From Candidatus Zhuqueibacterota bacterium (lineage in GTDB: Bacteria > Zhuqueibacterota > Zhuqueibacteria > Residuimicrobiales > Krinioviventaceae), in the NCBI GenBank assembly GCA_016934825.1, contig JAFGSB010000041.1, positions 1-64,000 on the forward strand: a DNA stretch of 64,000 bases, given 5' to 3'. Below the pieces are notes generated by a model that did not search any database, was not told the DNA's origin, and was given only the letters and a program-made list of their open reading frames with translations. A program made the position numbers and the translations under genes. Every line of letters begins with the position of its first letter. Within the stretch, counting starts at the first letter, position 1. Positions 33,765-34,678 of this stretch are shown here, in pieces.

Positions 33765-34121
33765 ATGCAAACAGTGGACATTATCAACAACGAAGAGCTA
33801 TTTGCACGGGTGGCCGGTGATGAGGAACTGCTTCATGAAATAGTAGAACTATTTATGGAGGATCATCAAAATCATCTTTTTAATATTAAAAATGCTCTTA
33901 ACAAAAAAGATGCCGCGCAACTCGTCAGGGCAGCACATACATTAAAAGGAGCCGTAGCTACGTTTGCCGCCAAAAGCGCAACCCAGGCGGCTTTAAAACT
34001 TGAACTTATGGGCAGAAGCAGGAACTTTAACGGCAGTAGTGAAGCATACATGTCTCTTGAAAAAGAGATAGAATTATTAAAACAGGCATTGACAAGTTTC
34101 TGTTCAACACCGAACCATTAA
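33765..34121 (+). CDS. Histidine phosphotransfer (Hpt) protein
   Basis: LVRAAHTLKGAVATFAAKSATQAALKLE, Hpt signature; aggagtg RBS; directly downstream of the hybrid kinase. Confidence 0.9.
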   Translation: MQTVDIINNEELFARVAGDEELLHEIVELFMEDHQNHLFNIKNALNKKDAAQLVRAAHTLKGAVATFAAKSATQAALKLELMGRSRNFNGSSEAYMSLEKEIELLKQALTSFCSTPNH

Positions 34122-34201
34122 AATAACTTTTGGTGAACAGTTGGTTTGTGTATCACCCGGTAATGAATTATTGAATTACAATTGAATATTTTCAGCATAG
34201 A

Positions 34202-34218
34202 TGTCCGTTTTCCGGACA
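34202..34218. repeat. Palindrome TGTCCG-ttttc-CGGACA (family copy)
   Basis: Direct reading, convergent intergenic region. Confidence 0.75.
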
Positions 34219-34327
34219 CCATATAATGAACAGTTTTCATAAATCCGGGGGAAAACCATACAATTTATTTGACCTGCCTCATCACGGATTCGGATTGTTT
34301 TAATTAAAATGTATTATTACATACACA

Positions 34328-34348
34328 GGTGCCCGGTCAACGGACACC
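34328..34348. repeat. Palindrome GGTGcCCG-gtcaa-CGGaCACC (family copy, one mismatch)
   Basis: Direct reading, convergent intergenic region. Confidence 0.7.
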
Positions 34349-34463
34349 GCCCGCTAATCAGATTTTCAAGTTCAATAAAATCAATTAATATAATTATCAA
34401 AATTCAATTTTTACATAAAATCAAATAATGAAAATATGAAAACTTAAATATAATAGTAGAATA

Positions 34464-34489
34464 CCGTGTCCGGGTTTAACCGGACACGG
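34464..34489. repeat. Palindrome CCGTGTCCGG-GTTTAA-CCGGACACGG (10-bp arms; core identical to 79-100)
   Basis: Direct reading, convergent intergenic region. Confidence 0.85.
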
Positions 34490-34516
34490 CTGTATTACAT
34501 ATTCAATTCAATAATA

Positions 34517-34678
34517 TTAATTTTCTGCTTCATCCTGCTCTTCGGATACCTGCCGGGTAAAATGTTTGTAAAGTATATATGCAACAAAAAATGAAATTGC
34601 AAAAATAAAAGCCGGAATTATGTAACCCAAAACAGGAGATCCGATTCGGGTGGTCGTTTGTGCAAAAAAAGCGGTCAT
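34517..34678 (-). CDS. 53-aa single-TM small protein (not in ORF track)
   Basis: Manual translation: MTAFFAQTTTRIGSPVLGYIIPAFIFAISFFVAYILYKHFTRQVSEEQDEAEN, with TM segment and charged C-tail; tightly linked to the SSS operon. Confidence 0.65.
   Translation of the reverse strand: MTAFFAQTTTRIGSPVLGYIIPAFIFAISFFVAYILYKHFTRQVSEEQDEAEN

Follow-up and report, generated by a model that had tools for sequence, protein, structure and literature searches.

The intergenic DNA at positions 34202–34489 of the window raises the question of what its palindromes are and how they arose. The window comprises bases 1–64000 of contig C86 of the draft genome G000 (5.39 Mb, 179 contigs). The original prediction listed three related palindromes at 34202–34218, 34328–34348 and 34464–34489, and each of them was present where it had been placed. 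Also confirmed was the 22-bp core GTGTCCGGGTTTAACCGGACAC, which is identical at positions 79–100 and 34466–34487. The pattern GTGTCCGG-N3-8-CCGGACAC occurs twice in the window, but in none of 100 dinucleotide shuffles. Genome-wide, TGTCCG-N3-10-CGGACA was found 97 times, compared to five matches of the reversed pattern used as a control, while the stricter pattern GTGTCCGG-N2-6-CCGGACAC yielded 22 matches and none when reversed. These values are well above chance, in line with the predicted dispersed repeat.

Alignment of the flanks revealed that the palindromes are paired about 150 bp apart around a constant interior. The consensus unit is a 180-bp element, which extends from CACTGGTGTCCGGTTAACGGACACCG to CGCGTCCGGGTTTAACCGGACACTGGTG and has the ends CACTGGTGTCCGGTTAA, inverted over 13 bp or more. 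A BLAST search with one copy as query gave at least 43 hits across the genome, with scores obtained for 40 of 221 first-look candidates. An HMM identified 90 elements, 59 of them near full length, in about 264 kb of DNA; these counts rest on stretches picked around palindromes and MITE matches. The mean pairwise identity of 31 aligned copies is 78%. Directly outside the paired ends, 9-bp direct repeats with at least 7/9 identical positions were observed in 32 elements of 130–200 bp. In the size class of 90–260 bp, the duplication is 9/9 in 18 elements and 8/9 in 11.

The element is hence short, non-coding and multi-copy, features terminal inverted repeats and has a target-site duplication with a constant length of 9 bp. 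An autonomous transposon with common ends is also present, namely the IS at C159:1–1273, with the ends CATTAGTGTCCGGTTAA. Each MITE end, composed of the end and an inverted copy of the same end, forms a palindrome of its own; the two ends are therefore not only inverted but also direct repeats of each other. We conclude that the feature is, very probably, a non-autonomous IS4-family MITE with palindromic ends.

In the window, a decayed copy of 169 bp (consensus 180 bp) is located on the plus strand at positions 34324–34492. It was matched from end to end (E = 1.4e-31) by an HMM from whose building it had been left out, and the five shuffled windows searched with the MITE HMM gave no match. Directly outside the element lie the left (34315–34323) and right (34493–34501) target-site duplications TATTACATA, which are identical at 9/9 positions and, like the palindromes, have no strand. 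The palindromes at 34328–34348 and 34464–34489, the second and third of the original prediction, align with the left and right ends of other copies, respectively. Given the HMM matches and the exact TATTACATA duplication, both are therefore the ends of one insertion. Of the claim of three related copies, the palindromes themselves proved genuine, but two of them are the two ends of a single 169-bp element.

Positions 1–105 hold, on the plus strand, the right-hand portion of a further MITE copy, matching HMM positions 76–180 (E = 6.7e-21). Palindrome 79–100 is therefore the right end of this other copy, which is truncated by the start of C86. A contig start or end also falls inside a MITE copy in C33, C59, C73, C155 and C166, which is expected because near-identical repeats break assembly. 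The remaining palindrome (34202–34218; 34196–34224 with the expected tips, no strand) gave a weak HMM match at 34199–34270 (E = 0.47), and its flanks, compared by eye, agree at 5/9 positions only. It is possibly a decayed MITE end or a decayed single hairpin.

A search of genome G000 for DDE_Tnp_1 yielded the above-mentioned IS (L127), which is 1273 bp in length and carries CATTAGTGTCCGGTTAA at both ends. Its uninterrupted 382-aa frame encodes a protein with DUF4372 and DDE_Tnp_1 domains, which scored 269.7 bits against the NCBIfam IS4 model NF033592 (cut-off 115). The YREK motif, Y-(2)-R-(3)-E-(6)-K, was located in this protein by eye as YKARWEIELFFKTIK. Both the DDE transposase and the YREK motif of the IS4 family are thus present. 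Of 82 genomes of the phylum, 17 (G000 counted) contain homologues of the transposase, and many of these homologues have CACTGCTGTCCGGTT-type ends. Exact 9/9 duplications flank six homologue loci (L221, L222, L225, L226, L229 and L230), in agreement with the length known for IS4 (about 10 bp; 8–10 bp for IS4Sa). The copy in G000 begins exactly where contig C159 begins, a position which suggests that more than one copy was collapsed in the assembly.

Members of the IS4Sa subgroup are 1150–1750 bp in length, with CA------T ends and 8–10-bp duplications (PMC2266710). The system described here resembles IS4Sa-like IS with DUF4372 and DDE_Tnp_1 in its CA......T ends, in IS lengths of about 1.2–1.4 kb and in duplication size. 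The MITE ends CACTGGTGTCCGGTTAA match the IS ends CATTAGTGTCCGGTTAA, and 9-bp duplications are common to both. Unlike the IS, the MITE contains no gene, and its ends feature an inverted inner copy which the IS lacks. From the common ends and the duplication length we infer that an IS4-family transposase with DUF4372 and DDE domains moves the MITE. In such a mechanism, an IS that shares the MITE ends would supply a DDE transposase with N-terminal DUF4372. This enzyme would cleave the CACTGGTGTCCGG-type ends of the MITE, and insertion by a 9-bp staggered cut would create the 9-bp target duplications. It counts against this assignment that the IS ends in G000 are not identical to the MITE ends (CATTAG against CACTGG). 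Furthermore, no DUF4372 transposase was detected in the draft genomes G017 and G015, although both contain numerous MITEs and hairpins whose target duplications are almost perfect; the source IS is therefore lost, absent from these assemblies, or different.

Bacterial MITEs have been described before, e.g. QMITE1 of Coxiella with 39–400 bp, and Chunjie (reviewed in PMC10969869). The 180-bp family is similar to these in being non-coding, in its terminal inverted repeats and target duplications, in its many intergenic copies and in its variable size. Unlike in the MITEs of that review, however, a discrete class of 29–34 bp exists, below the 39-bp minimum and made up of two back-to-back ends only. 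The MITE itself belongs to a known class; it is this discrete class of hairpins that sets it apart.

The single hairpins are more frequent in G017 and G015, which belong to the same order but to a different family, than in G000. Many strict palindromes of these relatives are solitary and 29 bp long, with the structure CACTGGTGTCCGG-NNN-CCGGACACCAGTG. In a first set from both genomes, 14 hairpins had, precisely at the register of the ends, 9-bp flanking repeats of at least 7/9 (9/9 in nine cases), in a register test that is illustrative, as the hairpins had been chosen at that same register; unrelated flank pairs reach at least 7/9 with P = 0.0013. Single hairpins of G000 measure either 29 bp, their loop being that of the left MITE end, or 30–32 bp, with a loop resembling that of the right end; a few on this list have 2–3 core mismatches and could be chance matches. 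Tips and arms of single hairpins covary, with none of 500 shuffles, which disregard relatedness, reaching the covariation scores. This is the arm covariation among relatives that had been named as a check on the prediction. The tip variant CACGAG/CTCGTG occurs in single hairpins, and no MITE seen has it at both ends. A search with the 30-base hairpin against plasmids gave no match. Taken together, a dispersed, intergenic, hairpin-forming repeat with limited lineage distribution, as originally proposed, is upheld.

At L093, comparison with the orthologous region of G015 revealed conserved neighbouring genes and no palindrome in G015, with strongly diverged intergenic DNA. Near several hairpins of G017 and G015, a second dispersed, imperfect palindrome was observed, roughly GGATTC(T/G)GT..AACAGAATCC (L103 at about 585, L106 at about 520, L094 at about 380; also L254 and L255). 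In L103, a 29-bp hairpin lies within one copy of this second palindrome, and comparison with L106 offers a paralogous site, approximately matched, that is empty of the hairpin.

Identification of the MITE and of its IS4 affiliation is far more secure than any account of how the single hairpins arose. We favour, with slightly better than even confidence, that they are inserted MITEs which collapsed between their palindromic ends. Replication slippage between the MITE ends would remove the interior, so that only one hairpin of 29–34 bp stays behind within the original target duplication. Slippage between the inner-left and outer-right arms, or between the outer-left and inner-right arms, would yield precisely the two loop classes that were observed, and in either case the outer tips and the duplication would be kept. 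We regard the hairpins as by-products of transposon ends and not as regulatory sites.

Several observations support such a collapse. The loops of one class match the left end of the resident MITE, and those of the other match its right end. If single hairpins come from MITEs, hairpins with the right-end loop of their own MITE are therefore expected in G017 and G015 as well, and this class was indeed found; it is 34 bp long with GTCGTTCGAC-type loops and includes 16 hairpins with duplications of at least 7/9. Lengths are discrete, since elements with duplications of at least 8/9 measure either 29–34 bp or 138–183 bp, the lone exception being 82 bp. In addition, L102 and L103 correspond exactly to both ends of an L095-type MITE joined with no sequence in between, and the unusual CCAATA tip is present as well. 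Support for collapse is weakened by the covarying tips, including variants rare in MITEs, because these need a further step. The covariation could result from hairpin-templated correction, from source elements with symmetric ends, or from the hairpin moving as a unit.

Precedents exist for parts of this collapse. The nearly precise excision of Tn10, for which a copy-choice account has been given (PMC12524634), likewise deletes the interior between short repeats near the ends. For Tn10 the excision was seen experimentally, whereas here it is deduced from the end products. Some REP singlets have been suggested to be former doublets that underwent a deletion between their two REPs (PMC3116915), and REPINs and REP singlets resemble the present family in forming hairpin doublets and singlets. 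In the model of PMC3116915, however, REPINs are moved by RAYT, while DDE-type ends and 9-bp duplications are found here.

Movement of the hairpins themselves is the strongest alternative, although we regard it as less likely. In this case, the 29–34-bp units of two back-to-back ends would be transposed in trans by an IS4-family transposase, and the 180-bp MITE would be a composite of two hairpins. Such an origin would account for the target duplications of single hairpins in G017 and G015, which are as perfect as those of MITEs and, at a level of at least 8/9, are seen in 25 hairpins compared to eight MITEs (at loci picked by palindrome). The covarying arms also fit, as does the IS, which lacks the inverted inner copy present at the MITE ends. 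On the other hand, the tips of L102 and L103 match the outer tips of the resident MITE, and in G000 the duplications of hairpins are more decayed than those of MITEs. Ends only 3–8 bp apart are, moreover, hard to synapse on one molecule, and to our knowledge the known DDE transposases are hardly able to do so. Small dispersed repeats of cyanobacteria, reportedly described by Elhai and colleagues in 2008, are said to be about 20–30 bp long and are thought to be mobile; they are similar to the hairpins in size and presumed mobility, a comparison made by description only.

Very improbable is a primary role of the palindromes as functional sites, i.e. as terminators, processed RNA hairpins, nucleoid-binding or chromosome-organising sites. 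None of 46 duplication-bearing copies lies inside an ORF (simple ORF calls, approximate), and the window copy, as RNA, folds better than shuffled sequences (z = −4.2), two observations in favour of such a role; good folding is, however, expected of any element with two palindromic ends. The sites differ among relatives, and the copies are decayed and bear insertion scars. No intrinsic terminator, i.e. a G + C-rich stem followed by a T run, was found in 34100–34560, so that the original judgement of simple terminators as a poor fit stands, and no Rfam family reached the gathering score. The suggested preference for convergent regions was not borne out, as convergent gaps hold only 4 of the 41 copies that could be classified from simple, approximate ORF calls. 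No result points to the proposed nucleoid or chromosome-organising role. Some copies may have been co-opted secondarily.

Mobilisation of REP/REPIN-type palindromes by a RAYT (Y1 tyrosine transposase), the sense in which the repeat had been called REP-like, would suit intergenic hairpin repeats in doublets and singlets and the seven Y1 transposase domains of G000, but is scarcely credible, given that the ends and the 9-bp duplications match an IS4-family IS of the DDE type and that none of the seven Y1 loci bears MITE-type ends. As regards membership of the RAYT/REPIN group, none of these seven loci has the repeats on either side of its Y1 gene, and duplications of the DDE type, which should be absent from that group, flank both MITEs and hairpins. 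One of the Y1 (IS200/RAYT-type) domains is located past the window on the same contig (G000:C86:70962–71330), the other six elsewhere.

REP-like intergenic palindromes are thereby given a concrete origin that does not involve RAYT, namely as DDE transposons reduced to their ends or as minimal forms of such transposons, and the 9-bp scar is a mark by which such DDE-derived hairpins can be recognised. If direct transposition of the hairpins were true, these units of 29–34 bp would rank among the smallest pieces of mobile DNA that carry a target duplication. They would also challenge the minimum spacing thought to be needed between transposon ends. If the single hairpins are collapsed MITEs, as we favour, they would represent bacterial counterparts of solo LTRs, and transposons would seed short hairpins in intergenic DNA.
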